Shown here: one piece after another, positions 13,418-29,439 of the stretch
How positions within the stretch are numbered: position 1 is the stretch's first letter
Layout of the letters: the number at the start of each line of letters is the position of its first letter
Origin: Curtobacterium sp. S6
GTDB taxonomy: Bacteria; Actinomycetota; Actinomycetes; Actinomycetales; Micrococcaceae
Assembly: GCF_000710345.2 (NCBI RefSeq)
Contig: NZ_JHEL01000010.1
Span: forward strand, 1 to 64,000
Direction: 5' to 3'
DNA: 64,000 nucleotides
Made by a program: the position numbers and the translations under genes
Notes under the pieces: model-generated
What the model was told of the DNA's origin: nothing
The model's input: the letters and a program-made list of their open reading frames with translations, nothing else
Databases searched by the model: none

Positions 13418-13510
13418 GCTATTTCCTTCGTGATCAGAAGTGATAAGTGCCGTGGAACGGCGGTGGGGTTGGGCTTCGGGGATCCAGGATTCGGTGGCGG
13501 GTCCTCGCCC

Positions 13511-14788
13511 TCAGGACCGCGTGGACCCGGTGGACGGAGCCTCGGAGACCTCGGCCGCCCGACGACGCGTCAGGCCGTGAGCCCGCTTCAAGGCTCGTTT
13601 CCGGTTCCGTCGCGCCGCGGCGTCGTCTTCCTGGCCAGGACCGTACGTCTTGCGCAGCGAATACCTGCCGTCGGAGGTCACGGGCTGTTCGCTTCCGGAC
13701 AGGTCGTTGGGCTTTCCGCGGGAATCGAAGGCGATTCCGATCCAGCGGGAGCGGGCGTCCGAGTCGATGAAGATCGCCTTGAAGAACAGGGTCAGCGGGA
13801 CCGCGAGGATCGCTCCCAGCGGCCCGACGATCGCGGACCAGAAAATCAGGGATACAAAAGTCACGGTGGTATTCAGGCCGACGGCGTCGCCGGTGATCTT
13901 CGGCTGGATGACGGCCTGGGCGACGAAGTTGATGACCGAGTACAGCACCACGACCCAGATCGCGGTGGGCGGGCCGCCGGCCAGGAGGCCCAGCAGCGCG
14001 GGTGGAATCAGGCCGATGATGAAGCCGACGTTCGGAATGTAGTTGGTAACGAAAGAAAACACGCCCCACGTGAAGGCGAGCGGCACCCCGAGGATCATGA
14101 GGGCGACCGTATCTAGGATCGCGACGATCGCGCCGAAGACCGTGTTGACGACCCAGTACTTCGAGGTGCGATGCGTGAAATCCTCGAACGCCGCGCCGAG
14201 CCCGGACTTGGACGCGCGCAACTCCGCACGGCGGCCCGTGATGACGGTCGAATCGATGAACAAGAAGGCGATGACCATGACCAGCACGAACAGCTGAGAG
14301 CCCGCCGACGAGAGCCCGCTCAGGATCGTGGTCAGGGCGCTGAGCACGCGCGCCGGTTGCATGAAGTTCAGCACGGACTGCCCGATGTCGGTCTCGTTGA
14401 GACCGAGGTCCGACATCCATGTCTGAGCCTGCTGGTACAGCACACCGAACTTCCCGCTATAGCCGGGCAAGGTGTCCACGAGCTGAGCCACGGAGACGAC
14501 CATGGATCCGATGATCGCCAGGAGGATCGCGTACAGGAACAGCGCGACGGTCAGGGAGGCCAGCCATCGGGGCACCTTGCGGTCCTGGAGCCACAACCGC
14601 ATCGGGCGCACGGCGATCACGAGCGAAAAGGCCAGAAACATCGGCCCGAAGATCTGCGAGATGAACTTCAGACCGCCCATGAAGACCACGAGGGCCGCCA
14701 GTGCCACCAACGCGACGACGCCCAAGGGCAGGCCAGGGCCACGGAGTCTCTTCTCATCGGGGTGCGTCATCGTCGCCGGGGTATCCAT
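13511..14788 (-). CDS. AI-2E family permease
   Basis: Inner-membrane protein of the AI-2E (UPF0118/PerM) family, 425 residues with about seven to eight membrane segments, for example LGVVALVALAALVVFMGGLKF, FGPMFLAFSLVIAV, ASLTVALFLYAILLAIIGSMV, LFVLVMVIAFLFID, VFGAIVAILDTVALMILGVPL, YIPNVGFIIGLIPPALLGLLAG and LGAILAVPLTLFFKAIF. The conserved block TNYIPNVGFIIGLIPP is the family signature. The tail of about 75 residues is hydrophilic and basic. Members export diverse solutes or ions (some Na+/H+, some autoinducer-2); the substrate cannot be read from sequence. Confidence 0.87.
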   Translation of the reverse strand: MDTPATMTHPDEKRLRGPGLPLGVVALVALAALVVFMGGLKFISQIFGPMFLAFSLVIAVRPMRLWLQDRKVPRWLASLTVALFLYAILLAIIGSMVVSVAQLVDTLPGYSGKFGVLYQQAQTWMSDLGLNETDIGQSVLNFMQPARVLSALTTILSGLSSAGSQLFVLVMVIAFLFIDSTVITGRRAELRASKSGLGAAFEDFTHRTSKYWVVNTVFGAIVAILDTVALMILGVPLAFTWGVFSFVTNYIPNVGFIIGLIPPALLGLLAGGPPTAIWVVVLYSVINFVAQAVIQPKITGDAVGLNTTVTFVSLIFWSAIVGPLGAILAVPLTLFFKAIFIDSDARSRWIGIAFDSRGKPNDLSGSEQPVTSDGRYSLRKTYGPGQEDDAAARRNRKRALKRAHGLTRRRAAEVSEAPSTGSTRS

Positions 14789-14833
14789 TTCTTTTGTCAG
14801 GGTTGCGCGTCGGGACCCACCCGACCGCCGGGA

Positions 14834-16057
14834 TTAGTGCGCGGCCGGATTACAGCAGGCTACGAAGAGGCTACCGTGCCCGCTGATCGTGAGATCATCG
14901 GCCGACCCGATGTGGAGGGCGGATCGCGTGCCGCTCAACGATACGCGGTCTTGGCCACCGGCCACCTCGACCTCACCTTCGAGGCACAAGATCGCGGCCA
15001 GCCCCTCGCACGGGAAAATGACGGGACTGCCGTCGGAGACATCAACCCGGAACAGCCGGAGTCGAGGATCCCACAGGTCATAGGAGCGGTAGCCTGACTC
15101 GGTCCGCTGAGGCTCGGTGATCTCCGGGGCGGGTTGCTCCGAGACGACGGTCGCGAGCATCTCCTTGACGTCCACGTGTTTGGGCGTCAGCCCTGCCCGC
15201 ATGACGTTATCCGAGGGGTTCATGATCTCCACGGCCGTGCCTTGGATGTACGCGTGGATATATCCGTCCGGGGTGTGCGCGGACTCCCCCGGCTTGAGAA
15301 ACAGCTGGTTCATCGCGACGGCGACCAGGATGCCCCGATCCCCCGGGTAAGCGTCGTGGAGCAACAGGATGAGGTCGGCGACGGCGTCGACGTCGAATCC
15401 CGGCTGGTCGCGGCGGTCCGCGGCGTCGTCTTCGTCGAAGGGGTGTTGCAGGCTCCAGTCCATGGCCGCGTTGACCGTGGCCTCCACCGCGACCGATGAG
15501 CTCGTCTCGTCCTTGGCGAAGATGCCCTTGACGATGTCCGCCGCGTTGTAATCGGCCAGTTCCGCGAGCCAGGTGAGATTCAGGCGCCGGGCGATCTCTT
15601 TGAGGTCCTCCGCCGGGCGGATGCCCGTCAGGATGCGCAGCGGGGAGTACGCGATCACGGTCTCCGGCTTGGAACGGCGATCTTTGTAATTACGCTCCGC
15701 CGCGTCCAGCGGGATTCCCGCGGCTTCTTCCCGCTCGAATCCGGCGACCGCTTGTTCTTCCGAGGGATGCACCTGGAGGGATAGCGGCGCGTCGATCGCG
15801 AGGATCTTGAGCAGATAGGGGAATTCCTCGAAGCCCTCCGGCAATATGGCGGTGGGGTCCTCGTCGATGATCTCGGCCAGGCGACGCTCGCCGCGATCGG
15901 TCTGGACGGAGGACGACGACCTGGGGTGCGCGCCGACCCATAGTTCCGCCTCCGGCTGCGCGGCCGGTGACTTCTCGCCGCGGAGCCGGGCGAGCGTATC
16001 GCGGGTTCCCCACGCGTAATTCTGGATTGGATTCTCCATGTTCAACAGCTGGCCCAT
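14834..16057 (-). CDS. manA: Mannose-6-phosphate isomerase, type I
   Basis: Zinc enzyme interconverting fructose-6-P and mannose-6-P, feeding GDP-mannose and mannosylated glycan synthesis. The 407-residue cupin protein shows ENPIQNYAWGTRD at its start, AELWVGAHPRSSS, the zinc ligands in LSLQVHPSEEQA and RSKPETVIAYSPL, and the active-site stretch LKPGESAHTPDGYIHAYIQG followed by EIMNPSDNVMRAGLTPKHVD. The open frame extends to 16117 but the family start fits MGQLLNMENPIQNYAWG (ATG 16057). It is divergent from the phosphomannomutase gene, the next enzyme of the same route. Confidence 0.93.
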   Translation of the reverse strand: MGQLLNMENPIQNYAWGTRDTLARLRGEKSPAAQPEAELWVGAHPRSSSSVQTDRGERRLAEIIDEDPTAILPEGFEEFPYLLKILAIDAPLSLQVHPSEEQAVAGFEREEAAGIPLDAAERNYKDRRSKPETVIAYSPLRILTGIRPAEDLKEIARRLNLTWLAELADYNAADIVKGIFAKDETSSSVAVEATVNAAMDWSLQHPFDEDDAADRRDQPGFDVDAVADLILLLHDAYPGDRGILVAVAMNQLFLKPGESAHTPDGYIHAYIQGTAVEIMNPSDNVMRAGLTPKHVDVKEMLATVVSEQPAPEITEPQRTESGYRSYDLWDPRLRLFRVDVSDGSPVIFPCEGLAAILCLEGEVEVAGGQDRVSLSGTRSALHIGSADDLTISGHGSLFVACCNPAAH

Positions 16058-16159
16058 AGTTCTCAATCCAACCACAACCGGGCGAACCGACGCAGGGACA
16101 TGAGGCCCGTCACGCACGCGATCACGCGGATTTCCCGGGCCACGCCGTAGAATCCCAGG

Positions 16160-17563
16160 GTGAGCATTAACTTAGACGAGTCATTTAAGGCATACGACGT
16201 CCGGGGCATCGTGGGCGAGACGATCACCCACGAGACCGTGCGCGCCACCGGGGCCGCATTCACGGACGTCCTCGGTCTGGCCGGGCAGACGGTCCTGGTT
16301 GGCGGAGATATGCGTCCGTCCTCCCCCGAATTCATGGACGAATTCGCCCAGGGAGCGAGAGCGCGCGGGGCCAACGTCGTCAAGGTCGGCCTGATTTCCA
16401 CCGACGAACTGTACTTCGCGTGCGGTGTCTTCGACGCCGCCGGCGTGACCTTTACGGCCTCCCACAATCCCGCGGAATACAACGGCATGAAGATGTCCCA
16501 GGCCGGTGCCGTGCCCGTCTCCTCCGAGACCGGCCTGTACGAGATCCGCAACCTCGCGCAGTCGTACCTCTCCGAGGGAATTCCTTCCGGCGAGGATCAG
16601 GGAAGCGTCGAGGAACGCGACATCCTCACCGACTACGCGAATTACCTGCGCGGTCTCGTGGATCTGACGACCATTCGTCCTCTCAAGGTCGTGGTGGACG
16701 CCGGTAATGGCATGGCCGGCAAAACCACCCCGGCGGTCCTCGGCGACGCCGTCCTGCCCGGGCTTCCGCTGGACATCGTCCCGATGTATTTTGACCTCGA
16801 CGGAACCTTTCCGAACCACCCCGCGAACCCGCTGGAACCGGCGAATCTCCGGGACTTGCAGGCGGCCGTCGTGCGGGAAGGCGCGGACATCGGCCTCGCT
16901 TTCGACGGCGACGCCGACCGGTGCTTCGTCATCGACGAACGCGGCGAACCGGTCACGCCCTCGGCCATCGCCGCCTTGGTCGCCGAGCGCGAGATCGACC
17001 GCGCCCAGGCCGCCGGCGAGAAGGAACCGGCGATCATCTACAACTTGATCACCTCCAAGGCCGTTCCGGAGCTCGTGGTGGCGAAGGGCGGGCGCCCGAT
17101 CAAGACGCGCGTGGGGCACTCCTTCATCAAGGCCGTCATGGCCGAGGAGAGGGGCGTCTTCGGCGGCGAGCACTCCGCCCACTACTACTTCCGCGACTTC
17201 TTCAACGCCGATACCGGCATGTTGGCGGCCATGCACGTGCTCGCGGCCCTCGGCGGCCAAGAACGAAGCCTGTCCGAGGTGGCCGAGAAATACTCGCCGT
17301 ACATCGCTTCGGGCGAGATCAACTCGAGGATCGAAGATAAGCAGGCCGCGGTCCAACGGGTCAAGGACGCGCTGGCCCGGGAGGCCGTCGACGTCGAAGA
17401 CTCCGACGGCACGACGTTCACGCACCGGGAGGAGGGATGGTGGTTCAACCTCCGCCCCTCGAACACCGAGCCGTTCCTGCGCTTGAACGTGGAGGCGCCT
17501 GACGCTCCGACCATGGAACGCGTTCGGGACCTCGCCCTCGGCCTGGTCCGAGAAGGCAACTAG
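16160..17563 (+). CDS. manB: Phosphomannomutase / phosphoglucomutase
   Basis: Alpha-D-phosphohexomutase converting mannose-6-P to mannose-1-P (and possibly the glucose pair). The 467-residue protein has the substrate start FKAYDVRGIVGE, the phosphoserine loop FTASHNPAEYNGMK (Ser101), the Mg2+ loop FDGDADRCFVID, the sugar-binding loop GEHSAHYYFRDF and the phosphate-binding loop RPSNTEPFLRLNVE. Start is GTG: -10-like TAGAAT (16148-16153) ends 6 bases before it and no ribosome site is seen, so the mRNA is likely leaderless. Divergent to manA. Confidence 0.93.
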   Translation: MSINLDESFKAYDVRGIVGETITHETVRATGAAFTDVLGLAGQTVLVGGDMRPSSPEFMDEFAQGARARGANVVKVGLISTDELYFACGVFDAAGVTFTASHNPAEYNGMKMSQAGAVPVSSETGLYEIRNLAQSYLSEGIPSGEDQGSVEERDILTDYANYLRGLVDLTTIRPLKVVVDAGNGMAGKTTPAVLGDAVLPGLPLDIVPMYFDLDGTFPNHPANPLEPANLRDLQAAVVREGADIGLAFDGDADRCFVIDERGEPVTPSAIAALVAEREIDRAQAAGEKEPAIIYNLITSKAVPELVVAKGGRPIKTRVGHSFIKAVMAEERGVFGGEHSAHYYFRDFFNADTGMLAAMHVLAALGGQERSLSEVAEKYSPYIASGEINSRIEDKQAAVQRVKDALAREAVDVEDSDGTTFTHREEGWWFNLRPSNTEPFLRLNVEAPDAPTMERVRDLALGLVREGN

Positions 17564-17575
17564 CCACCTACCACG

Positions 17576-17604
17576 ATGGCCGGGCAGAGGATCTGCCCGG
17601 CCAT
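17576..17604 (+). terminator. Terminator after phosphomannomutase
   Basis: A perfect 12-bp stem (17576-17587 with 17593-17604, arm ATGGCCGGGCAG) followed by CTTTGG lies 13 bases after the stop codon. Confidence 0.75.
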
Positions 17605-17616
17605 CTTTGGGTTAAA

Positions 17617-17650
17617 CCGTGGCCCGGCACCTCACGGTGCCGGGCCACGG
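17617..17650 (-). terminator. Terminator after pckG
   Basis: A perfect 15-bp stem (17617-17631 with 17636-17650) with a 4-base loop; on the minus strand it is followed by TTTAA. It serves pckG, convergent with the gene to the left. Confidence 0.8.
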
Positions 17651-17680
17651 AGGAAAGCTCGCCTTGGCGGCTTCCGCAGT

Positions 17681-19540
17681 TTAGGAGTTGAGGCGCTTCT
17701 CCAACGCGTCACGCTGCTGCTGAATTTCCTCCGGCAGGTGGTCGCCGAGCTTCGCCAACCACTCGTCGATCCCGGGGAGCTCGGCCTTCCACTCATCGTG
17801 ATCGACCGCGATCGCTTCCTTAATGGCCTCCTCGGTGCCTTCGAGGCCCGTCAGGTCCAGGTCCTCCAGGCCCGGGACCACGCCGACGGCCGTCTCGCGG
17901 CCGCCGCCCTCGCCCTGAAGGCGCTCGACGATCCACTTGATCACCCGCGAGTTCTCGCCGAATCCGGGCCACGCGAAGCCACCGTCGGCCGTGCGACGGA
18001 ACCAGTTGACGTAGAAGACCTTGGGCATATTCGACTCGCCGTACTTCTCGGCGACATTGATCCAGTGCTTCAGGTAATCGCCGGCGTTGTAGCCGATGAA
18101 CGGCAACATGGCCATCGGGTCGCGGCGCACGACGCCGACCTCACCCTTGGCCGCGGCGGTGGTCTCGGAGGACAGCGTGGCCCCCTGGAAGACGCCGTGC
18201 TGCCAGTCGTAGGACTGGGAGACCAGAGGAACCGTGGTCTTGCGACGGCCGCCGAAGATGATGGCCGAGAGCGGGACGCCCTCGGGGTCGTCGTATTCCG
18301 GCGCCACGATCTCGACCTGCTTGATCGGAGTGCAGAAACGCGAGTTCGGGTGCGCCGCGGGGCGGCCCGAGTCCGGCGTCCAGTCCTGGCCCTTCCAGTC
18401 GATCAGGTGTGCCGGCTTCTCGTCCGTCATGCCTTCCCACCAGACGCCGCCGTCGTCGGTGAGGGCGACGTTGGTGAAGATCGTATTCCCCTGGGCAATG
18501 CCGCGCATCGCATTCGGGTTGGTCGACCAGCCGGTTCCCGGGGCGACGCCGAAGAGTCCAGCCTCCGGGTTGATGACGCGGGGCTTACCGTCGCCGTCAA
18601 AATTGATCCACGAGATATCGTCGCCAACCATCTCGGCCTTCCAGCCATCGATCGTGGGCTCGATCATCGCGAAGTTCGTCTTGCCGCAGGCCGAAGGGAA
18701 AGCGCCACTGAGGTAGTGGGTATTGCCCTTGGGATCGGTGATCTTGAGGATCAGCATGTGCTCGGCGAGCCAGCCCTCGTCGTGAGCGATCGCCGAAGCG
18801 ATGCGCAACGCGTAACACTTCTTGCCGAGGAGCGCGTTTCCGCCGTAACCGGAGCCAAAGGACCAAATGGCGCGGTCTTCGGGGAACTGGACGATGTACT
18901 TATCCGGGTTGCAGGGCCAGGCGACGTCCTGCTCCCCCTCTTCGAGGGGCGCGCCCACGGAGTGGAGGGCCTGGACGAAAAAGGCGTTCGTGCTCTCCAG
19001 TTTACGGAGCACATCGCTGCCGATCGTTGCCATGATGCGCATGGAGCACACGACGTACGCGGAATCGGTCAGCTCAACGCCGAACTTGGGCTCCTTCGCA
19101 TCCAGGTGGCCCATGACGAACGGGATCACGTAGAGCGTGCGCCCCCGCATGCAACCCCGGTACTTCTCGGTCAGGGTTCCCTTCATCTCCTCCGGATCCA
19201 TCCAGTTATTGGTGGGTCCGGCGCCCTCACGGGTCTTGCTGCAGATGAAGGTCCGTTCCTCGACGCGCGCGACGTCGTCGGGATCCGAGAAAGCGGCAAA
19301 GGAATTCGGGAAGGACTCTTCGTTCAGACGCACGAACGTTCCGGCGTCCACGAGCTCCGTGGTGAGCTGGTCCCACTCTTGACGAGAACCATCGACCCAG
19401 TGAATGGCATCGGGCTGCGTCAGCTCCGCAACCTCACGTACCCAGCTCAGCAAGGGCTGGTGCGTGGTGGGAGCGTTGGACAAGGCTTCAGCAACGGCTG
19501 GCTTCAGAGTGTCGCTGTTTCCGACGGCGGTGTCAGTCAT
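17681..19540 (-). CDS. pckG: Phosphoenolpyruvate carboxykinase (GTP)
   Basis: Converts oxaloacetate and GTP to PEP, the first committed step of gluconeogenesis. The 619-residue product has the GTP-class landmarks: [54 protein letters not shown], the kinase P-loop with its reactive Cys in [32 protein letters not shown] and WVNWFRR-like substrate region ([19 protein letters not shown]). The open frame continues to 19741, but ATG 19540 follows a ribosome site (AAAGGGG on the minus strand) and begins the conserved part; a Ser/Thr-rich N-terminus of about 25 residues precedes homology. Confidence 0.95.
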
Positions 19541-19752
19541 TAATTGTTCCCCTTTAGAGGTTCCGGCCCGAGGTGGGCCATCACTCACGACGTTGTGTGG
19601 GCCGATTCGCAGGCCCCGCGGAACACAGCGCTCAGTGTTGTGAGCTGAATTCACGCGGGAACTACCCTCTGCCCATGTGACAAGACCAGAGTAGCGTAAA
19701 CCGAACAAGCTGTGGCCTGGAACGACTGCGGTACAGATCACAACACCTCAAG

Positions 19753-19819: not shown

Positions 19820-19895
19820 GCGCCTGTAGCTCAACGGATAGAGCATCTGACTACGGATCAGAAGGTTGGGGGTTCGAATCCCTTCGGGCGCACCA
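19820..19895 (+). tRNA. tRNA-Arg (anticodon ACG)
   Basis: Cloverleaf is complete: acceptor GCGCCTG pairs with CGGGCGC (one G-U), D arm GCTCAACGGATAGAGC, anticodon stem TCTGA/TCAGA with loop CTACGGA (ACG), T arm GGGGGTTCGAATCCCTT-like and encoded CCA (19893-19895). It is the left neighbour of the accessory islet at 20.0-23.8 kb. Confidence 0.95.
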
Positions 19896-19933: not shown

Positions 19934-19943
19934 TTGCGTACCC

Positions 19944-20007
19944 GCACCCCACTCAACGCGCACGGAATTCCCGGGATGAGACCGACGTTCCAGTCCAGCA
20001 CCTCCGC
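19944..20007. repeat. Degenerate copy of the 3' end of the acetoacetyl-CoA synthetase gene
   Basis: This 64-base stretch aligns with 23920-23983, the last codons and stop of the synthetase gene, with about eight substitutions and one single-base indel; CGGAATTCCCGGG and CCAGTCCAGCACCTC are shared blocks. The indel breaks the frame here, so this copy is non-functional. With the intact copy it brackets the four-gene islet and marks the insertion boundary beside tRNA-Arg. Confidence 0.8.
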
Positions 20008-20030: not shown

Positions 20031-21404
20031 CTACAGCCGACCTCTCAAGCGCACTTGGCGATGATCACGCATGAGGATTACAGCAACGAGCAAAGCTCCC
20101 CCGCCGAAGACCGCGCCGGCGAGCGCGGCGGCCGTATGGAAGCCTGACAAAAAAGGTCCGCGGGCTACCATTGCACCGAGGACCGCCACCCCGACCAGGC
20201 TGCCGGTCTGGCGAGCGGCATTGATGACTCCTCCCGCGATACCGACGTGTTGTGGCAAAGCTGAAGACACAGCAGCCGTTGTCGCCGCTGGCATCGCAAA
20301 CGCCATCCCGAAGCCGACGGCGAATGTCAGGATCGCTAATAGGACGAACGGGGTCTCCGCGGTTAGCAGCACGAGGCTACCGAAGCCGATCGTACCGATC
20401 ATCAGTCCGATGAGCATGGTCGGGAACGCGCCCCAACGACCGACGGCACGACCTCCCAAAGGGGACCCAATCACCGCGCTACATGCCTGGGGAGCGAGCG
20501 CGAGACCCGCCAGCCACGGTTCATAACCCAGGTACCGCTGAAAAAACAAGGAAAGAACGAACAGCTGACCGAAGAAGCTCAGGTTGAGCGCGAACCCGAC
20601 AACCGCGGCCACAGAGAACCGAACACGCCCAAATAGATCCATCGGTAGCATCGGCGCCGGATGCCGACGTTCGACGTACACGAAAATCGCAAGAAACACG
20701 GCCCCAGCAACGAGGTCAAGGCTCTGCCAGGCCGACCAGCCGTATTCCCCGGCGGTGATGACGGCATAGGTGATCCCACCGAAGCCGAGCACCGACAGCG
20801 CTTGCCCAGGCAGGTCCATCCGTCTTTTACGGCTTCCTGTGATGCCGGGAAGCGCACGCAGAGTCAGCCGACAACCGACAGCAATAACGGGAATGTTGAC
20901 CCAGAACACCGCACGCCAGCCGATCACCGACACAAGTGCTCCGCCCAAGACGGGCCCGATCGCAGCCGCTACTCCGCCGGCCCCGCCCCACAGGCCGATG
21001 GCTCGTGCTCTTTTCTCTGGATCCTCGTAAACGGCTGATAGTAGTGCCAACGAAGCAGGCACGATCGCTGCCGCTCCTAGGCCCTGAAGAACGCGGCCCG
21101 CCACGAGATATCCACCCGTAGGTGCCAGGGCGCATGCGGCGGAGAAGACAGCGAAAACCAACAATCCTGTCACGTAGACCTTGCGTGCCCCGATGCGATC
21201 ACAGGCGGCCCCCGCGGTGAGGAGGAAGGCCGCGAACACGAGGGTGTAGGCGTCGATGACCCATTGCAAGGACGCCACGCTCATGTGAAGATCGAAGCCT
21301 ACCCTGGCGAGGGCTACGTTGACTATGGTCGTATCCAACATAACGATGAAGAATCCAAGCAGGATAGCGATCAATGATCCCTTCGGACGGCAGACTCCAT
21401 TCAT
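20031..21404 (-). CDS. MFS drug-efflux-type transporter (DHA2-like)
   Basis: 457-residue major facilitator with about 13-14 membrane segments, of the drug:H+ antiporter-2 type. Seen are IAILLGFFIVMLDTTIVNVAL (first segment with the DxTIVNVAL motif), QWVIDAYTLVFAAFLLTAGAA, motif A CDRIGARKVYVTG, GRVLQGLGAAAIVPASLALL and motif C GLWGGAGGVAAAIGPVLGG. Its ATG overlaps the stop of the formyltransferase gene by four bases (ATGA), so it is the last gene of a coupled three-gene operon. Probable role is proton-driven export of the operon's product or resistance to it; substrate unknown. Base composition is lower in GC than flanking core genes. Confidence 0.88.
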   Translation of the reverse strand: MNGVCRPKGSLIAILLGFFIVMLDTTIVNVALARVGFDLHMSVASLQWVIDAYTLVFAAFLLTAGAACDRIGARKVYVTGLLVFAVFSAACALAPTGGYLVAGRVLQGLGAAAIVPASLALLSAVYEDPEKRARAIGLWGGAGGVAAAIGPVLGGALVSVIGWRAVFWVNIPVIAVGCRLTLRALPGITGSRKRRMDLPGQALSVLGFGGITYAVITAGEYGWSAWQSLDLVAGAVFLAIFVYVERRHPAPMLPMDLFGRVRFSVAAVVGFALNLSFFGQLFVLSLFFQRYLGYEPWLAGLALAPQACSAVIGSPLGGRAVGRWGAFPTMLIGLMIGTIGFGSLVLLTAETPFVLLAILTFAVGFGMAFAMPAATTAAVSSALPQHVGIAGGVINAARQTGSLVGVAVLGAMVARGPFLSGFHTAAALAGAVFGGGALLVAVILMRDHRQVRLRGRL

Positions 21405-22072
21405 GGGTGGAACTCCATCGCGGCACGCGGGGCGCGGATAGGCGGGTGCCCGAAGTACGTCCGCCGACTCAGATCTTGCTCCCAGGTGCGGTAAGTCCTG
21501 TCGAGTAGCGTCGGCAAGACTAAATCGAACAGAGTCCAGGATGCGGCAAAATGCGAGTCGCGTATTTCCTTTGCCGTTTCGGTACCGGTGAGGGAGAGAC
21601 GTTGCTGCGCCACGAGAGGGCCTTCGCCCAACCCGATCGTCATTCGTACCGCAGACACGCCACCTTCGGTCTCGTGCCTCTCAGCCATCCAGTAGAACGG
21701 GGCCAGCCCGGCGTAACGGGGAAGTGGGCCAGGGTGGAAATTGATGGCGTCGCACCTGGGCGCTTCCAGGAGTCGTCTCCCTAGGCGTAGCTGATAGTTG
21801 GCTACGACGAAGTAGTCAGGAGCCAGATCTTCCACGATACTCACGAACTCTTGAGTATTGACGTCCGAAGGACGCAATACCTGTACACCAAGCTGCGTAG
21901 CTTTCTCCGCAAGGTCCACAGGATCAGGCTCATCCAGGTAGTAGTCGCACAGTACGCCGGGCTCGCGTAGCGTTACCGCCGCCAAGGTCACTTCAGGGTG
22001 GCAAGCCAGACGTGTGAGAAAGTAATCGCCGAAGACTGAGTTCGTCTCGGTGAATAGCACTATCCGAGTCAT
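21401..22072 (-). CDS. Formyltransferase-fold protein
   Basis: 223-residue protein of the formyl transferase N-terminal fold (methionyl-tRNA formyltransferase / GART / ArnA relatives) without the usual C-terminal domain. It has a Rossmann-like start MTRIVLFTETNSVFGDYFLT and the active-site loop DAINFHPGPLPRYAGLAPF, where Asn111 and His113 are the conserved catalytic pair. The third catalytic residue, normally Asp in a GLDxGP motif, reads GLGEGPLV here (Gly149), so the chemistry may differ. ATG 22072 overlaps the stop of the ThiF gene by four bases; the longer frame to 22267 is discarded. The N10-formyl-THF cosubstrate is inferred from the family. Confidence 0.78.
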   Translation of the reverse strand: MTRIVLFTETNSVFGDYFLTRLACHPEVTLAAVTLREPGVLCDYYLDEPDPVDLAEKATQLGVQVLRPSDVNTQEFVSIVEDLAPDYFVVANYQLRLGRRLLEAPRCDAINFHPGPLPRYAGLAPFYWMAERHETEGGVSAVRMTIGLGEGPLVAQQRLSLTGTETAKEIRDSHFAASWTLFDLVLPTLLDRTYRTWEQDLSRRTYFGHPPIRAPRAAMEFHP

Positions 22073-22953
22073 CGTGCCCACCAGGCTTTCTCTACGATCT
22101 TCGCCTCCCAGGTCAGCGTGTCGAAGAGCGCGTACCCAGGCTGGACTGGCAATTTTGTGCGCCCTGGAAGGTCCATGATCTCTTGGGCGAGCCGTTCGAC
22201 AAGGACGCCTTCGGCTAAAGGAGGGCAGGCCCCGAAGATCGGCATTGTCTGATTCTCCACGAACCACTCATTCAGCATGGTTGCTGACGGGAAGTCCTGG
22301 TACTCGGGCATGATGCGTTCCATTAATCGTTGCACCACATCCGGCGTGAACTCGGCGTCCTCAGGCACGCCGTAGACTTCCTCGATGGGCATTGAATCTT
22401 TGGTATAGGTGAACACGAACGTGGAGTGAGCCACTGTAGGAATCTTGAACATGAACTTGCATCGATCTGAGGCACGGAAGGCTCGATGCAGGGCGTATCG
22501 GTTCCTGATCTGGTAGAACTCCATCTGATCCATCACGTAGTCACAGCCATCCATGAACTCTTCGGCGGTGTCTGGAGTGATGCCCTCGGGAAATACATCA
22601 ATGTTGGTGTCGCCGGTTAGTGCGAAGACCTGCTCGGCGACGACTTCAGCCTTATTACGACCAATCGTGTCTCGGCCGGCACCGTATTGTCGTTGCACGT
22701 TCGTTAAATCGAATTGGTCCGGGTCTGCAAGTTTCAGGTTGAGTGCACCCATACGAACCAGGCGTGCTACTACGGCACCACCAATTCCGCCCGTACCGAC
22801 GATGCCGATCACAGCGTCTCGCAGACGTACCTGTCGTTCACGTTGCTCGCTGACGGTATCACCGAGCCATCCAAGATTTCGATGTACTCGTTCCCAGTAG
22901 AAGTCCTCGTCGTATGTGCCGCACAGACGCTGTCGGTTTTCACGCATCGCCAT
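22069..22953 (-). CDS. ThiF/E1-like adenylyltransferase
   Basis: 294-residue member of the ThiF/MoeB/E1 superfamily, which activates a C-terminal or other carboxylate as an acyl-adenylate. Visible residues: nucleotide loop GTGGIG (53-58), DPDQFDLTNVQRQYGAG with Asp77/79, Asn85, Arg88 and Gln89, Lys101 in GRNKAEVVAEQV, and Asp138/Asp142 in GCDYVMDQMEFYQIRNR. A lone Cys243 in IFGACPPLAEG could be a thioester site. No zinc CxxC pairs are seen and no ubiquitin-like partner is nearby. Start ATG 22953 is preceded by AGAGGGA with 8-base spacing; TTG 22974 is the alternative. First gene of the operon. Confidence 0.82.
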   Translation of the reverse strand: MAMRENRQRLCGTYDEDFYWERVHRNLGWLGDTVSEQRERQVRLRDAVIGIVGTGGIGGAVVARLVRMGALNLKLADPDQFDLTNVQRQYGAGRDTIGRNKAEVVAEQVFALTGDTNIDVFPEGITPDTAEEFMDGCDYVMDQMEFYQIRNRYALHRAFRASDRCKFMFKIPTVAHSTFVFTYTKDSMPIEEVYGVPEDAEFTPDVVQRLMERIMPEYQDFPSATMLNEWFVENQTMPIFGACPPLAEGVLVERLAQEIMDLPGRTKLPVQPGYALFDTLTWEAKIVEKAWWAR

Positions 22954-23007
22954 CAGTTCGTCCCTCTCGTGCAAAATTGAATTTTGTGAACTTACCCTGC
23001 GTCATTG

Positions 23008-23031
23008 ACTGTTCGGTCATGACCGAACAGT
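23008..23031. promoter_or_regulatory. Perfect 24-bp palindrome, probable operator
   Basis: ACTGTTCGGTCA followed directly by its reverse complement TGACCGAACAGT. It lies between the divergent HTH regulator and ThiF operon, overlaps a -35-like TTGACT (23005-23010) of the regulator and is upstream of a minus-strand -10-like TAAGTT (22994-22989). The position and symmetry fit autoregulation by a dimeric winged-helix protein. Confidence 0.7.
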
Positions 23032-23057
23032 TCTGGACGCACGCTGGAGGCATGATT

Positions 23058-23786
23058 GTGCGTGTATACCCTGAGTCCGTTCCTGACATCTCGGCTACGG
23101 CGACAGCGCTAGCCGATGCATCGCGAGCGGCAATGTGTGCTGCTCTCATGGACGGGCGAGCGTGGACGGTCGGGGAACTCGGCAACTATGCGGGATTGGC
23201 CCGTTCGACCGCAAGCGAGCACGTCGACGCGCTCGTAGCCCACGGCATCGTTCGCGACATCCGGCAGGGCCGGCATCGCTACATCCGATTGGCCGGAGAA
23301 GACGTCGCCCACGTCATCGAATGCCTCGGCGCCTTGGCGAGCTCAGATTTGCCTACGCCCCACAGCTTGATCGCTTCAAGAGCGAACACAAACCTCCGCG
23401 AAGGCCGAACGTGCTACCAACATCTCGCGGGGAAGCTCGGGGTCAGCTTGGTCGAACAGTTGCAGGATCGCGACTATATCGACAGTCAGTGGCAAGTCAC
23501 GCGACGAGGACGACGCCTCTTTACCCAATGGGGTGTCCCCATCACGATGCTCACCACAGGAACACCTTGCATGGATTCCACCGAACGCCGCTTCCACCTC
23601 GGAGGCCCTTTCGGAACCGGACTGTGCAAGGCTCTGCTGCACAGAGAGTGGGTCGCCCGCATCGGCCGTACGCGAGCCGTGCGCCTCACCGCTACCGGCC
23701 GTGAGGCCCTTATCGATGCCGGGCTAGCTCCTGGCTCACCGGCAACCATCGACGACGATGACCACCGCGACTTGGCAAGCCTCTAG
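23058..23786 (+). CDS. ArsR/MarR-like winged-helix regulator
   Basis: 242-residue protein with an N-terminal winged-helix domain of ArsR type: LADASRAAMCAALMDGRAWTVGELG, recognition helix region YAGLARSTASEHVDALVAHGIV and wing RDIRQGRHRYIRLAG. A C-terminal domain of about 130 residues has a second helix-wing-like pattern (KLGVSLVEQLQDRDYI, WQVTRRGRRLF; REWVARIGRTRAVRLTATGREAL), as in two-domain ArsR-family proteins. GTG 23058 lies 7 bases after GGAGG (23046-23050) and is preferred; ATG 23052 and ATG 23019 (inside the palindrome) are in frame. Divergent from the ThiF operon, which it probably represses. Ligand unknown. Confidence 0.78.
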   Translation: MRVYPESVPDISATATALADASRAAMCAALMDGRAWTVGELGNYAGLARSTASEHVDALVAHGIVRDIRQGRHRYIRLAGEDVAHVIECLGALASSDLPTPHSLIASRANTNLREGRTCYQHLAGKLGVSLVEQLQDRDYIDSQWQVTRRGRRLFTQWGVPITMLTTGTPCMDSTERRFHLGGPFGTGLCKALLHREWVARIGRTRAVRLTATGREALIDAGLAPGSPATIDDDDHRDLASL

Positions 23787-23919
23787 GCCTGCTGAGACAC
23801 GACGCCAAGACCGACGGTCGCGTCCGGCTGCCAAGTCCTCCGTAGGATGCGTCGCTTGGAAAGCCAACTACGCGTTGACTCCGACCTACGTCAATGCAAC
23901 CTTTCCCGTCATTTGTGGC

Positions 23920-23983
23920 GCACCCGACTCAACGCGCTCGGAATTCCCGGGCTGCGTCGACGTACCAGTCCAGCACCTCGGCG
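23920..23983. repeat. Right-hand copy of the islet-flanking repeat
   Basis: Partner of 19944-20007; here it is the true 3' end of the acetoacetyl-CoA synthetase gene with its TGA. The 133 bases between the regulator stop and this point contain no gene. Confidence 0.8.
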
Positions 23984-25929
23984 TCCTCCGCGCTCGCGCG
24001 GTTGAGGCTCTCCGGTCCTGCTCCCTGGAACAGGCGCTTGACGGGCACCTCCAGGAGTTTTCCCGTCCGGGTTCGGGGAACCGCGGGCGCCTCGATGATC
24101 TCGTCCGGAACATACCGCGGCGAGACCTCCGTTCGGATGCTTCGGACGATCTGGTCCTTCAGCTCCTCCGTCAGCCGCGTGCCGGGTTGAGGGACCACGA
24201 ACAGCGGCATGTAATAGTCTCCGCCGGTCAACTCGGCTCCGATGACCATGGACGCGGCGACGCCGTCGACCTGGTCCACCACGTGCGTGATGTCCGACGA
24301 ACCCATCCGGATGCCGCCGCGGTTGATCGTCGAGTCCGACCGACCGTGGATGACGATTCGACCGTCTCGCGACTGGGTCACCCAGTCCCCCTGGCGCCAG
24401 GTGCCGGGGAACAGCTCAAAGTACGCCTCGCGGAGCCGCGAGCCATCCTCGTCGTTCCAGAAATACAGGGGCATGCTGGGCATGGGGGTCGTCAGGACCA
24501 GTTCGCCAACCTCGTCCCAGACCCGCTGGCCCCGAAGGTTCCACGACTGAGCGTCCACGCCGAGATAAGCGCCCATGAGCTCTCCCCGATAGACGTCCAT
24601 GAAGGGATTGCTCCCCACGAAGGCGCTCGTGACATCCGTTCCCCCGGAGTCCGAGCCGAGCCTGACGTCGGGCGTGACGGCCTCGTAGACCCAGTCCCAG
24701 ACCGGGCCCGGAAGAGATGAGCCCGTCACGAGGATGGTTCGTAGCCGGGAGAAGTCGTATCGGGTGTTGGGTCGCACGCCGGCGTGCTCCGCCATGGCCA
24801 GCACCGCCGCGCCGGTTCCAAAGAATGACACCCCGTGCCTGGCCACGAGCTCGAGGGACTTATCAGGACCCCCGAAGGTCGGGGAACCGTCATAGGTCAG
24901 GATCGTCGCCCCGAGCAAAAGATTCCCCATGTGCAGGTTCCACATCATCCACGTGGTGGCCACGGCGGTGTAAACCCGATCTCCCGCGCTCACGTCCCCG
25001 TGAAGTCCCAGGGCCTTGAGGAATTCCACGACGACACCTCCGTGGGAATGGACGATGCCCTTGGGCCGCCCCGTGGTGCCCGAGGAGTACAAGATCCACA
25101 GCGGATGGTCGAAAGGCACCTGTTCGTAGCGCGGCTCAGCCGGGTTCCGAAGGATCTCGGAGTAGCGAAGCACGTCGGACGGCACCTCGCCAACCTCGGC
25201 CGGATCCCGCTGATCCACTAAAATCACCCGTTCGACGGTCGGCAGGACCTCCCGGAGCGGTTGGATGGTTCCGGTCATGTCGCGAAGCCGACCCGCGTAG
25301 TCGTAGCCGTCCACCGTCAGCAAGATTTTCGGTTCGATCTGGGCGAAACGATCCGCCACGCCCTGGGGCCCGAAGTCGGTGTTGACCACCGACCACACCG
25401 CCCCGACCGCCGCGGTGGCCATGAGGGCCACCACGGTCTCCGGGATATTTGGCAAGACGGCGGCCACGCGGTCACCAGGACGCACCCCGAGGTCACGCAG
25501 CTTCTGTGCCAGAGACGCAACGTTGGCCTCGAGTTGCTTCCAGGTCAGCTCGGCGGTCGGGGCGGTCTCGTGGTCACCGATGATCGCGAGGTCGTCGGGC
25601 CTGTCCGCGACGGCAGCCAGGGAATTTTCGGCGTAGTTCAGACTCGCCCCGGTGAACCACCGCGCCCCGGGCATCTCGCGGCTGGAGAGCACCTGTGTTT
25701 CCCTAGCCGAGGAGACGACCCCGAAATAGTCCCAGATGTCCCGCCAGAAGTCTTCGAGACGATCCACCGACCACCGGTGCAGGGCCTCATAGTCGGGGAG
25801 GCTCAGCCCGTGGCGTTCCTCGACCCATCGGGCGAAGTCGTACATCCGGGAGCCCTCGACGTCCTCGGGTTGGGGACCCCAGAGGAAAGTGCGCTCGGAA
25901 TCAGACTGGTCCTCGGGACTCGTTGCCAT
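23929..25929 (-). CDS. Acetoacetyl-CoA synthetase
   Basis: Acyl-adenylate-forming ligase that activates acetoacetate with CoA and ATP. The 666-residue protein contains the N-terminal ACAS region (RDIWDYFGVVSSA, GARWFTGASLNYAEN), the AMP-binding motif LWILYSSGTTGRPKGIVHSHGG, the DSGGTDVTSAFVGSN block specific to acetoacetate ligases, GRSDSTINRGGIRMGSSDI and the C-terminal lysine loop (PRTRTGKLLEVPVKRLF). Start ATG 25929 is chosen because GAGAGG on the minus strand sits 6 bases before it and the conserved region begins soon after; the frame continues open to 26013. Its 3' end carries the repeat that bounds the neighbouring islet. Confidence 0.9.
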   Translation of the reverse strand: MATSPEDQSDSERTFLWGPQPEDVEGSRMYDFARWVEERHGLSLPDYEALHRWSVDRLEDFWRDIWDYFGVVSSARETQVLSSREMPGARWFTGASLNYAENSLAAVADRPDDLAIIGDHETAPTAELTWKQLEANVASLAQKLRDLGVRPGDRVAAVLPNIPETVVALMATAAVGAVWSVVNTDFGPQGVADRFAQIEPKILLTVDGYDYAGRLRDMTGTIQPLREVLPTVERVILVDQRDPAEVGEVPSDVLRYSEILRNPAEPRYEQVPFDHPLWILYSSGTTGRPKGIVHSHGGVVVEFLKALGLHGDVSAGDRVYTAVATTWMMWNLHMGNLLLGATILTYDGSPTFGGPDKSLELVARHGVSFFGTGAAVLAMAEHAGVRPNTRYDFSRLRTILVTGSSLPGPVWDWVYEAVTPDVRLGSDSGGTDVTSAFVGSNPFMDVYRGELMGAYLGVDAQSWNLRGQRVWDEVGELVLTTPMPSMPLYFWNDEDGSRLREAYFELFPGTWRQGDWVTQSRDGRIVIHGRSDSTINRGGIRMGSSDITHVVDQVDGVAASMVIGAELTGGDYYMPLFVVPQPGTRLTEELKDQIVRSIRTEVSPRYVPDEIIEAPAVPRTRTGKLLEVPVKRLFQGAGPESLNRASAEDAEVLDWYVDAAREFRAR

Positions 25930-26153
25930 GGTCGGCCTCTCTTGTCGATGGGATAGGGGGACGTCCTCCGGGCGCCTCGGCATGGCACGCACACTCAGTG
26001 TGATGCAACGCATCTTCGATCCAGGGTAGTCGTAGGTGGCCGGGCCAACATGTTCTCCGGGAGTTCACCCCCGGGTGTCCCGTGACTCATCGACCTGCGG
26101 TTCTAGCGACCTACGGTCAAGATGAACCATCAATCACCGCACCGAGGATCACC

Positions 26154-28154
26154 ATGACATCGCACCCCCATTCCCAGCGTCCCCACCGATACCGGGTCGC
26201 GGCCCTCCTGGCCGCCGGCATGCTCGGCCTGACCGCGGCGCCCGTGTGGGCCGCGCCCGCCACTCAGAAAACGGACAAGCCCACCGCCATCGCCGACATT
26301 CAGGGAACGACGGACATCAGCCCGATGGACCATCGAAAGGTCACGACCAGCGGGATCGTGACCGCCGCCTACCCGCAGGGCGGGTTGAAGGGCTATTACC
26401 TCCAGACGCCCGGGACCGGCGGCGACCAGGGCCCCACACCGGGACGATCCGACGGCCTCTTCGTCTATTCCCCGGACACGGTGGGACAGGTCCGCGTCGG
26501 GGAACAGGTTAAAGTCTTCGGGCAGGTGAGCGAGTATTACGGCCAGACTCAGATCAGCGTCTCCGCGGGGGCGGTCTCGGAAATCCACGACGCCGCCCCG
26601 GCGGTCAAGCCCTTCACGGGCCTCGTGCCGGAGGACCCCGCCGCCCGCGAGGCCCTGGAAGGCATGCTCCTGCAGCCCTCGGGCGAGATCACCGTGACCG
26701 ACAGCTACGCCACGAACCGCTACGGCGAAATCGGACTGGTCAACGGGTCCAAGGCCCTCCCGCAATCCACCGACGTTGCCCGCCCCGGCTCGGAGGCCCA
26801 GGCCGTGGAGGCCGCCAATGCGCGGAAGGAATACCTCCTCGACGACGGGGCGACCGTGGACTACACCCGCGGCGCCAGCGGGACACCGGTCCCCTACCTG
26901 TCGAACGGGAAGCCGGTACGGGCCGGGGAACCGGCTACCTTCACTCAGCCCGTGATCCTCGGCTACGGCTACGACTCCTGGCGCCTCCAACCGACCACCT
27001 GGCTGACCGGAGGGCCCGAGGCCGCAGCGCCCGCGACCTTCGGCAACACGCGGGTGGCGACCCCACAGAAGGTCGGAGGAGACGTGTCCGTCGCGAGCTT
27101 CAACGTCCTGAACTATTTCCCGACGACCGGCGATCAGCTCAGTGGATGCCAGTACTACAAGGACCGCGAGAACAACCCGATCACCGTCAGCGGAGGGTGC
27201 GACGCACGCGGAGCCGCCAATCAGGAGAACCTCGACCGACAGCAACGCAAGATCGTCGAGGCGATCACCTCGCTCGACGCGTCCGTGCTCTCGCTCGAAG
27301 AAATCGAGAACTCCGCGCGCTTCGGCCAGAACCGCGACGCCGCCCTGCACCAGCTCGTGGACGCCCTGAATCAGAAGGCCGGGACCGACAAATGGAAGGC
27401 CGTGGATTCTCCGGCGACGGTGCCCGGATCGGAGGACGTAATCCGCACGGCCTTCATCTATCAACCGGCTAAGGTGACTCCCTCTGGCGACTCCACGATT
27501 CTCGCCGACCCCGCCTTCGACAACGCCCGACGCCCCCTGGCCCAGGCTTTCCAGCCGACCGCATCCGGTAGCGATAAGTTTTTAGCGATCGTGAACCACT
27601 TCAAGTCCAAGGGATCGGGTGAGGGCCCCGGCAACGAGGACGCCGGCGACGGTCAAGGCGCGTCAAACGCGTCGCGCGTGGCCCAGGCCAAGGCGCTGGC
27701 CACCTTCGCGGCAGATCAACAGAGCGCGGCCGCGACGGACAACACGGTTCTGCTCGGTGACTTCAATTCGTACACCCAGGAAGACCCGATGCAGGTGCTG
27801 TACGAGGCGGGCTTCCAAGACATCGGCTCCGCGAAAACCACCAAGCAGACCTACCTCTTCGGTGGTCGCGTGGGCAGCCTGGATCACGTCCTCGCCTCAG
27901 GCCCGATGTTCGACGCCGTGGCCGGCGCCGACGTGTGGAACATCAACTCGGTGGAGTCAGTCGGTCTCGAGTATTCGCGGTTCAACAACAACGTCACGAA
28001 TCTCTACGCGCCGGATGCGTACCGTTCATCGGACCACGATCCGCTGCTGGTCGGCTTCAACACCGTCTCGTCCGACAGCGGTCACCATAACCACGGTCAC
28101 GGCGGACATCATGGGGGCCACGGGCGGCACGGCCACGGCGGCGGGACGTTATAG
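26154..28154 (+). CDS. Secreted ExeM/NucH-type nuclease
   Basis: 666-residue extracellular nuclease. A signal peptide is clear (YRVAALLAAGMLGLTAAPVWA, cut near AAPA). Then comes an OB-fold domain (about 40-150; TTSGIVTAAYPQGGLKGYYLQ, GEQVKVFGQVSEYYGQTQIS) and a C-terminal endonuclease/exonuclease/phosphatase domain: VASFNVLNYFPTTG, LSLEEIENSARFG (metal-binding Glu), AIVNHFKSKGSGEG, LLGDFNSYTQEDP and YRSSDHDPLLVGF (catalytic Asp-His). It ends in a His/Gly-rich tail of about 24 residues that may bind metal. SD-like GAGGA at 26144-26148. Likely role is nutrient or phosphate scavenging from external DNA. Confidence 0.88.
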   Translation: MTSHPHSQRPHRYRVAALLAAGMLGLTAAPVWAAPATQKTDKPTAIADIQGTTDISPMDHRKVTTSGIVTAAYPQGGLKGYYLQTPGTGGDQGPTPGRSDGLFVYSPDTVGQVRVGEQVKVFGQVSEYYGQTQISVSAGAVSEIHDAAPAVKPFTGLVPEDPAAREALEGMLLQPSGEITVTDSYATNRYGEIGLVNGSKALPQSTDVARPGSEAQAVEAANARKEYLLDDGATVDYTRGASGTPVPYLSNGKPVRAGEPATFTQPVILGYGYDSWRLQPTTWLTGGPEAAAPATFGNTRVATPQKVGGDVSVASFNVLNYFPTTGDQLSGCQYYKDRENNPITVSGGCDARGAANQENLDRQQRKIVEAITSLDASVLSLEEIENSARFGQNRDAALHQLVDALNQKAGTDKWKAVDSPATVPGSEDVIRTAFIYQPAKVTPSGDSTILADPAFDNARRPLAQAFQPTASGSDKFLAIVNHFKSKGSGEGPGNEDAGDGQGASNASRVAQAKALATFAADQQSAAATDNTVLLGDFNSYTQEDPMQVLYEAGFQDIGSAKTTKQTYLFGGRVGSLDHVLASGPMFDAVAGADVWNINSVESVGLEYSRFNNNVTNLYAPDAYRSSDHDPLLVGFNTVSSDSGHHNHGHGGHHGGHGRHGHGGGTL

Positions 28155-29276
28155 CGCGAGATCCAGCGGCAGATCTGAAATGTCCTTGAGGCGCCGCCCC
28201 TGGACCATCGTGTGCAACAGATCGGCCCCGGCGGGGTCGGCCTCGGGGTCGATCGCGTCCATGAGCTCATGCAAGGCCACGTGATAGACGCAGTCGATGT
28301 CCCCCGTGCCGAGCGCGACCGCCGCGAGCCGCGAAGGCATCGGTTCCCCGGTCACCAGCACCAGGTGCGGCACACGTCCTCGCCGGTTGCGGATGAGGTG
28401 CCTCGCCTCGGAACGGACCTGTTCCGCGCGGTCGCTGCGCAACGTCCACTTGCAGGCGACGACGGCGTGCAGGAGCGCCTTCGACTGCACCGCCGAACGA
28501 AGCGGGCTCGCCGAGGCGAGCGGTCCCATCGGATCAACGATCCGCGCCGTCGCGTTGAGTTCGGAGTCCGGGACCGGGGCACGGGCCACCACCACGTCCG
28601 GGGCGATGATGGACGAGTCGTGCCCGATCAGCGCCCGCAGGTCCCGGTGTGCCTCGATGGCCTCTCGAAGCCCGCTGACGTGCTCGTACTGCTCGAAGAC
28701 CGTCGAGGCGTCCTGGACCCCTTGACCATCCGCGGCATCGCCGAGGCGGCGCACCGTCCACTCCCCCGGCCGAACGACGTCGAGGGCACGCATGACCGAT
28801 TTCAGGTACGCGGCGACGGCGCGCTCGAAGTTCCGCCGCACCCCGTGCCCCGGCGCCCGCCGGGCCTCGGGGACCCCACCGACGCCGTCGACCACGGCGC
28901 GGGCGTATCGGATGCTCGAGGACGAGTCCTTATCCGCGTTGGAGGGAGCCCCCGTCCCCGGGTCCACCACGAGCACTCGTTCATCCAGGAGCGCGCGGTG
29001 AAAAACACGACGCGCGCGGTCCATGAGGTATTCGGGATCCACGCGGCGGGATGCGGCGATTTCGGCCCGGGTCATCTCCGCCTCGGCGTCACGAAGGTTG
29101 GGTGGTTCCGGCACCGAAGGCCGCGTCGGTACGGCATCGTTGCGGGACGCGGACTTGCCGGGATTCTTGGGTGCGGCACGCGGCGGCGACGCGGGCTGCT
29201 CGTCGGCGAATTCCGTGAGATCCAGGGAAAAGAGGAACTGTTCCTCCGGCTCGTTCTGTGAGCGACGTCGGCTCAT
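28149..29276 (-). CDS. NgoMIV-like type II restriction endonuclease, orphan
   Basis: 375-residue protein whose C-terminal half carries a PD-(D/E)xK-type site arranged as in the NgoMIV family: PD at 226-227 (IIAPDVVVAR), then CKWTLRSDRAEQVRSEARHL with Lys276 and Glu290, a K-x13-E spacing equal to that of NgoMIV, followed by NRRGRVPHLVLVTGEPMPSR. The first 65 residues are Pro/Ser-rich and probably disordered. No methyltransferase gene is visible on either side, so its own DNA must be protected elsewhere or the enzyme is inactive. It overlaps the end of the nuclease gene by six bases, tail to tail. Recognition sequence (GCCGGC in NgoMIV) is not predictable here. Confidence 0.72.
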   Translation of the reverse strand: MSRRRSQNEPEEQFLFSLDLTEFADEQPASPPRAAPKNPGKSASRNDAVPTRPSVPEPPNLRDAEAEMTRAEIAASRRVDPEYLMDRARRVFHRALLDERVLVVDPGTGAPSNADKDSSSSIRYARAVVDGVGGVPEARRAPGHGVRRNFERAVAAYLKSVMRALDVVRPGEWTVRRLGDAADGQGVQDASTVFEQYEHVSGLREAIEAHRDLRALIGHDSSIIAPDVVVARAPVPDSELNATARIVDPMGPLASASPLRSAVQSKALLHAVVACKWTLRSDRAEQVRSEARHLIRNRRGRVPHLVLVTGEPMPSRLAAVALGTGDIDCVYHVALHELMDAIDPEADPAGADLLHTMVQGRRLKDISDLPLDLAL

Positions 29277-29439
29277 GCATCCTCCAGGTCCGTCGGTTCC
29301 CGACCAGATTACTCAAGATGCCGAAACATCACGCGCGACTATGTTTCGCGTCACCTCTCATGACGAGGAGTTAACCTCCGTCCGGGTGGCCTGCCTAGAC
29401 TGTGTGGGCACCTGATTTTCAGCCCACTCCGGGAGAGTA

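Follow-up and report, generated by a model that had tools for sequence, protein, structure and literature searches.

What does a compact group of genes for an adenylating enzyme, a formyltransferase-fold protein, an exporter and a regulator do for the bacterium that carries it? The question is raised by a four-gene islet at positions 20031–23786 of the window, by which we mean the whole stretch of 64,000 nucleotides analysed here (Curtobacterium sp. S6, assembly GCF_000710345.2, contig NZ_JHEL01000010.1, positions 1 to 64,000 of the forward strand). The original prediction, made from the letters of this DNA, had described a small cassette of modifying enzymes plus an exporter, and gene content and family matches agree with that description. 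The genes are the following:

20031–21404, minus strand: major facilitator superfamily (MFS) exporter of the DHA2/EmrB type, 457 residues (PF07690, 209.4 bits)
21401–22072, minus strand: formyltransferase-fold protein (FT), 223 residues (match to PF00551)
22069–22974, minus strand: ThiF/E1-like adenylating enzyme, 294–301 residues (PF00899, 92 bits)
23019–23786, plus strand: ArsR-like winged-helix regulator (HTH_20, 32.8 bits against a cut-off of 27)

We propose, with about even confidence, that this is a production-and-immunity cassette which arrived by horizontal transfer and whose small metabolite is exported; substrate, product, toxicity and the ligand and mode of action of the regulator are inferred. 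FT would N-formylate an amine, most likely that of an amino acid or amino-acid-like metabolite, and ThiF would adenylate a carboxylate and drive cyclisation (oxazolone-type or another ring closure) or transfer; the outcome would be a reactive and toxic compound. This product would leave the cell through the MFS protein, which would also confer immunity, and the ArsR-like regulator, acting on a divergent palindrome, would open the promoter in the presence of the product. In relatives, a DNA-3-methyladenine glycosylase or the pair Ada and Ogt would complete the immunity, the product probably alkylating DNA, and the window copy, which has Gly in place of the catalytic Asp of FT, may have shifted toward immunity only.

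Recurrence of the cassette and exchange of its parts

The trio of ThiF, formyltransferase and MFS genes, for which the original prediction had proposed a genome search, recurs elsewhere together with an ArsR-type regulator. Plasmids from C. tuberculostearicum CTNIH20, L. plantarum (pCYLB47-6) and L. gastricus LG045 show the order seen in the window, a divergent regulator followed by ThiF-FT-MFS. When one genome was scanned for each species, 17 loci emerged, and ThiF adjoins FT in 12 of them (L025–L034, L036 and L038), with a GNAT protein in place of FT in one (L035) and deletion alleles in four (L037, L039, L040 and L041). In this set the FT frame of L026 is interrupted close to the end of its contig, L029 is a near-copy of L036, and L033, like one of the plasmids above, comes from L. 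gastricus. ThiF, FT and MFS genes are contiguous in 7/17 loci (L025, L027, L031–L034 and L038), the MFS gene lies some kilobases off in L028, and the contig stops before it in L026; searches with the three query pumps gave no related MFS protein beside L029, L030, L035 and L036. An ArsR-type regulator is nearby in 16/17 loci, the exception being the gammaproteobacterial L032. Because the arrangement is found again in another phylum, it exceeds chance. Between the window and lactobacilli the ThiF proteins are 57–58% identical, the MFS proteins 25–27% identical and the regulators different, indicating that the enzyme pair is the core and that exporter and regulator are exchangeable.

The transferase partner of ThiF also varies. 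On staphylococcal plasmids a member of the aspartate/ornithine carbamoyltransferase family takes the place of FT (230.3 bits, just below the aspartate carbamoyltransferase cut-off of 236.95), and a ThiF-carbamoyltransferase pair appears again in a second Actinokineospora locus (L103), with 30% identity to the staphylococcal protein. GNAT partners are found in L035, L101 and L102, as well as in distant Salmonella and Rhizobium loci (L044 and L045), and in the genus of G409 the 2/8 genomes with a match gave two GNAT-type clusters. Judged by their families, these partners would formylate, carbamoylate or acylate an amine. Three Streptomyces loci add an AMP-ligase, two RidA-like proteins, an O-methyltransferase, a PGA_cap protein and an FAD-NAD(P)-binding protein (families assigned in L029 only, other loci by similarity), and the PGA_cap protein (L029 11374–12585) is related to the lasso-peptide epimerase MslH (128 bits, cut-off 700); these ThiF-FT neighbourhoods resemble a biosynthetic cluster.

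Two larger neighbourhoods are recorded here in their own right. In L103 (1622–15643), MFS, ArsR and PEP-mutase-family genes, the ThiF-carbamoyltransferase pair, a GNAT gene, PurU and an FAD-NAD(P)-binding relative stand together, and PurU (formyltetrahydrofolate deformylase) scores above its cut-off. On Salmonella plasmid p28NP2 (L044 5477–10605), Ada, Ogt, GNAT, ThiF, an LCM-type methyltransferase and a PEP-mutase-family gene form one run, which looks like a separate cluster. Carriage by phages was considered and set aside, viral contigs holding no relatives and phage records two weak partial matches. Production of 6-N-hydroxylaminopurine (6-HAP) by S. epidermidis, taken up as a possible identity of the staphylococcal variant, was likewise dropped, the papers found being general and with no link to the cassette. 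In searches of the open-access literature, which covers few subscription journals and preprints, we recognised no description of a ThiF-formyltransferase-MFS cassette.

Loss of the enzymes and linkage to DNA repair

In four corynebacterial copies, each with a deletion of its own, the beginning of ThiF is joined to the last part of FT (C. aurimucosum pET44827, which also has a later frameshift, Corynebacterium sp. KPL1814, C. gottingense and C. minutissimum). Another deletion is common to L. oris, L. gasseri and L. plantarum MWLp-12, L. portuensis carries one of its own, and a plasmid of Lactobacillus sp. 3B shows a like arrangement from annotation only. All six distinct deletions retain regulator and MFS gene, and the MFS frames were open in 9/9 deletion-allele copies tested. 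At five of the six junctions the ThiF frame continues into that of FT, and the remaining one stops just inside the MFS gene; the in-frame junctions would preserve coupling to the MFS gene. The probability of five or more of six being in frame, at a one-in-three chance each, is ~0.02, a figure that microhomology may bias.

Enzyme loss goes further on three lactobacillar plasmids (L091, L092 and L093), which hold the exporter, two regulators and the DNA-3-methyladenine glycosylase I (Tag) gene with no enzyme match, that is, a free-standing module. For the staphylococci, regions were examined in 6 of 15 records with the carbamoyltransferase: S. capitis pJOS_01, a 50-kb skin plasmid, retains MFS and ArsR genes beside short ThiF and carbamoyltransferase remnants (L126 2056–5082), and in S. 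epidermidis pSE45A5-4 the carbamoyltransferase is split and ThiF annotated as intact. No compact cassette examined was seen to combine intact enzymes with a broken MFS gene. Since the enzymes have been lost repeatedly in corynebacteria, lactobacilli and staphylococci with the exporter left open, the pattern looks like the footprint expected when immunity outlasts production, though a detoxification module whose pump suffices would leave a similar one.

Repair genes accompany part of the family. Tag is in the module in 9/9 plasmid records with the lactobacillar DUF5937 regulator, a count drawn from a search for the regulator and hence not selected by Tag; the glycosylase of L023 is broken, being split between two frames. 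Two types of glycosylase, ~41% identical, stand at different positions, after the MFS gene or after the second regulator, which suggests two recruitments. Within the scan loci, L033 and L039 have the glycosylase and the Lentilactobacillus locus L034 does not, and in the Salmonella plasmid relative Ada and Ogt lie just upstream of the GNAT-ThiF pair. The idea that the Tag linkage is mere lactobacillar background was rejected, 9/12 lactobacillar Tag records falling inside the module and 3 outside (Tag genes away from the cassette are on plasmids of L. crispatus, L. amylolyticus and L. intestinalis; the Streptococcus Tag record L094 was too sparsely annotated to be judged). The linkage to Tag and to Ada/Ogt thus suggests a DNA-damaging product. 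On a plain reading of the gene content, the product would be DNA-alkylating in at least part of the family, and a modified base analogue is possible.

Probable chemistry and competing explanations

The nucleotide-site residues of ThiF (the Gly loop, Asp77, Arg88, Lys101 and Asp142) are invariant across 18 aligned rows; their roles in adenylation are assumed by analogy with MoeB. The window ThiF scores under every NCBIfam cut-off shown, the best being PRK08223 (130.6 against 266 bits). Nor is membership of the housekeeping ThiF or MoeB families supported (the original prediction had named a known housekeeping family with unrelated neighbours as fatal to it), the scores being far below the cut-offs of TIGR02356 (ThiF, 68.4 against 275.25 bits) and TIGR02355 (MoeB, 38.3 against 376.55 bits). 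In an unrooted tree with long branches (53 rows, three duplicates having been removed from 56), the 18 ThiF relatives form one group (98/96), apart from the MoeB-like and Trz/PRK14851-like groups; Rv1355c-type matches in 15/118 class genomes and PRK14851-type matches in 8/198 phylum genomes served only as sources of rows. ThiF proteins of the window kind (E 1e-40 or better) occur in 4/394 sampled class genomes, own genome counted. At E 1e-5, matches occur in 275/295 sampled genomes of the family, and the best besides the own gene is partial with 36% identity, as expected for housekeeping ThiF/MoeB proteins. Compared with solved structures, the ThiF core matched TcdA best (E 4.4e-14), ahead of MccB (E 2.6e-7). 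TcdA, the tRNA threonylcarbamoyladenosine dehydratase, presumably cyclises a carbamoyl amino acid, as a carbamoyltransferase-ThiF pair could; unlike TcdA, however, the islet protein scores 54.3 bits against the TcdA NCBIfam cut-off of 304.

FT reaches 71.1 bits against the PF00551 cut-off of 26.1, which places it in the superfamily fold. In alignments to ArnA/Fmt and to 12 relatives it retains Asn111 and His113 and has Gly at the catalytic Asp position 149, where Asp stands in the other 12 of 13 rows and Gly only in the window (rows L021 and L025 are near-copies). We take Asn-His-Asp to be the catalytic triad of PF00551 formyltransferases, with the Asp at position 149. Apart from this substitution the reading frames of the islet are open. 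The window copy may have given up production and retained regulator and pump, its chemistry may be altered, or the Gly may be a sequencing error. The MFS protein passes the efflux_EmrB model TIGR00711 (237.6 against 230.2 bits), as a DHA2/EmrB exporter should, and is proposed to serve as both exporter and immunity protein.

For the chemistry, the closest published parallels are pathways in which an acyltransferase, a ThiF-type cyclase and a desaturase (TyzACB, OxzAB and TrzAS) convert N-acyl amino acids into 5(4H)-oxazolones with ATP (PMC10404671, PMC12856293, PMC12479983). They share with the islet a two-part logic of an N-acylating enzyme and a ThiF-type ATP-dependent cyclase (PMC10404671, PMC12856293), whereas the islet differs in its formyltransferase partner (elsewhere carbamoyltransferase-family or GNAT), its built-in exporter and ArsR-like regulator, and a ThiF in a group of its own. 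Because published ThiF-acyltransferase pairs cyclise N-acyl amino acids to oxazolones, N-formylation followed by ATP-driven activation or cyclisation is the likeliest chemistry, and the window ThiF is proposed, by this analogy, to be an N-acyl amino acid cyclase. LitM of the lipothrenin pathway is a further ThiF-family protein acting on an N-acyl amino acid: it is reported to be required for conversion of L-Thr to D-allo-Thr in N-acyl-threonine, and its deletion leaves only the L-Thr form (PMC10616846). Unlike the islet, the lipothrenin locus is a far more gene-rich cluster for a siderophore with a long-chain acyl group, and LitM is likened here by description, not by sequence. Pantoea PNP-1, a small antimicrobial cluster, likewise combines a formyltransferase-fold protein with an exporter (MFS/LysE-type), next to an aminotransferase-family gene and others, but no ThiF is named in the part of the paper at hand (PMC4010436). 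Defence of the cyclic-oligonucleotide-based antiphage signalling (CBASS) or E1-E2 type has no E2, JAB or CD-NTase partner among the four genes; PADLOC returned partial E1 matches for ThiF, none for FT or the MFS protein, and helix-turn-helix (Csa3) matches for the regulator.

Several observations weigh against a production-and-immunity cassette with this chemistry and a DNA-alkylating product. An exporter-sufficient resistance cassette predicts the same pattern of enzyme loss; in S. pasteuri FDAARGOS_1151 carbamoyltransferase and regulator are both broken, with ThiF and MFS intact by annotation; and some Streptomyces loci hold the enzymes with no related pump found nearby. Queries with Tag, Ada and Ogt found none in the available flanks of the corynebacterial, staphylococcal, Streptomyces, Bacillus, window and Lentilactobacillus L034 copies, and the Salmonella relative, at 35% identity, is a distant one. 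Formyl or carbamoyl transfer would not obviously lead to a methyl-like DNA adduct, and the compact cassettes have no methyltransferase. The islet has no amino-acid N-acyltransferase of the OxzA/TyzA type, the neighbour of ThiF being a PF00551 protein, and no flavin desaturase (nitroreductase), fused or adjacent, among its four genes; the unrooted tree cannot place the window ThiF nearer to oxazolone cyclases than to MoeB.

The same genes could instead serve detoxification: a toxic compound from outside, possibly a DNA alkylator, would induce the operon through the ArsR-like regulator, transferase and ThiF would modify it, the MFS protein would expel it, and the glycosylase or Ada/Ogt would repair residual damage. 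Resistance modules typically feature small mobilisable plasmids, ArsR-type regulators and DHA2 pumps, PLSDB labels the Firmicute pumps mdeA-like, and exporter-plus-glycosylase modules devoid of the enzymes exist. However, enzymes that detoxify would hardly be the part lost time after time and never kept beside a broken pump in the compact cassettes, the Streptomyces and Actinokineospora ThiF relatives sit in larger biosynthesis-like neighbourhoods, and a two-step modification via adenylation is in our judgement unusual for resistance, so that we regard this explanation as unlikely. Distinctly less probable is a harmless metabolite, an N-formyl or cyclised amino acid serving as signal or store, with the MFS protein as its exporter and the repair linkage incidental. 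The roles of oxazolones and N-acyl amino acids are described as unclear, and most copies outside the lactobacilli have no repair gene found alongside, yet there must be a selective reason why three lineages kept the exporter once the enzymes were lost, and another for the 9/9 glycosylase linkage.

The original prediction had drawn a parallel to microcin C. On such a reading ThiF would play the part of MccB, its substrate being a short peptide that has escaped notice, the MFS protein would correspond to MccC, and a peptide-nucleotide would result. An E1-like enzyme next to an MFS exporter is indeed common to both, and the ThiF core is weakly similar to MccB, but most of the MccB N-terminal part, presumably the peptide clamp, has no counterpart in the islet (MccB 111–190 aligns to residues 45–124), and TcdA outscores MccB. 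No precursor micro-open reading frame upstream of ThiF is common to the 12 loci scanned, for which only the upstream stretch was searched and near-copies were left aside; similar upstream micro-frames of the actinobacterial copies overlap the operator candidate. The parallel is accordingly weak, N-acyl amino acid cyclases fit better, and a microcin C-like product seems highly improbable. The accompanying remark that no ubiquitin-like protein, peptide synthetase or common precursor peptide is visible holds, the first two not being seen in the islet.

Returning to the production-and-immunity cassette, a bolder form of it is possible, though we think it doubtful: a two-enzyme genotoxin system in which a C1-/acyl-transferase and an E1-like cyclase on small plasmids of skin and gut commensals would make a minimal DNA-alkylating antibiotic, the exporter together with base-excision or alkyl-transfer repair would give immunity, immunity-only cheater alleles would be widespread, and the exchangeable partner (formyl, carbamoyl or acyl) would tune one scaffold chemistry. 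If true, a very small biosynthetic system that is simple to clone would join the plasmid pool of human skin and gut, its product may be mutagenic to bacteria nearby and perhaps to host cells, and ThiF-type cyclisation would extend from lipid-like N-acyl amino acids to C1-acylated ones. Natural producer alleles and immunity-only alleles would bear on the question of genotoxin warfare via commensal plasmids.

Composition, regulation and insertion site of the window copy

By its sequence features, the islet is a foreign, horizontally moved four-gene cassette. Coordinates and GC windows bear out three ATGA-overlapped genes, a divergent regulator and lowered GC, as originally described. The overlaps are at 22069–22072 (ThiF/FT) and 21401–21404 (FT/MFS). 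For FT the listed 288-residue open reading frame starts further upstream, and the likely start is the ATG at 22072; ThiF starts at TTG (22974) or alternatively at ATG 22953/22947, and the regulator, which ends at 23786, at ATG 23019 within the palindrome or ATG 23052. In 500-base windows the GC fraction is 0.53–0.64 in the islet against 0.59–0.72 in the flanks, the drop being distinct across ThiF and FT and barely visible across the MFS gene. Third-position GC is 0.64–0.67 for the MFS, ThiF and regulator genes (FT excluded from the list) against 0.82–0.90 in the genes at 11775–19741 and 23929–29763. A Pfam scan found no integrase or transposase among the four genes.

The regulator falls short of the ArsR/SmtB model NF033788 (50.1 against 55 bits) and passes the Pfam cut-offs of HTH_20 and HTH_IclR; its C-terminal part bears RTCYQHLAG, and related regulator parts adjoin ThiF in relatives. 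The remaining features are a candidate operator and two repeats:

23011–23028, no strand: operator candidate GTTCGGT-N4-ACCGAAC, an exact palindrome in the divergent promoter
19943–20007, no strand: left direct repeat, a remnant of the end of the acetoacetyl-CoA synthetase (AACS) gene (64 bp, 88%, E 4.6e-15)
23919–23982, no strand: right direct repeat, including the 3' end of the AACS gene (23929–26013, minus strand)

The arms of the palindrome, with another spacer and ~75 bases before ThiF, match in 4 Corynebacterium genomes with the cassette or a deletion allele. The own genome holds a single exact copy of the 18-mer and one more site at three mismatches; a backward control pattern, three mismatches allowed, gave no match there and one match in 3/4 Corynebacterium genomes. 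In Brevibacterium (G296) the pattern matches away from its cassette and in the Bacillus genome it has no match, showing that the operator candidate is not common beyond these actinobacteria.

The original prediction had placed an insertion between the tRNA-Arg and AACS genes, and both do flank the islet. The tRNA-Arg gene (19820–19895) follows the phosphoenolpyruvate carboxykinase (PEPCK) gene in 4/4 nearest relatives compared, and in many more as listed. The end of the AACS gene, however, was located ~12–16 kb beyond PEPCK/tRNA-Arg in 3/3 relatives (G224, G118 and G280), so that at the window junction a stretch was replaced or rearranged. The islet DNA was found in 1/35 genomes of the genus, its own. 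The AACS gene end lies on both sides of the islet as an imperfect direct repeat of 64 bp, which the original prediction had overlooked. In the relative G118 this gene end occurs once more, at another site of the genome (C1:288297-289119, L051).

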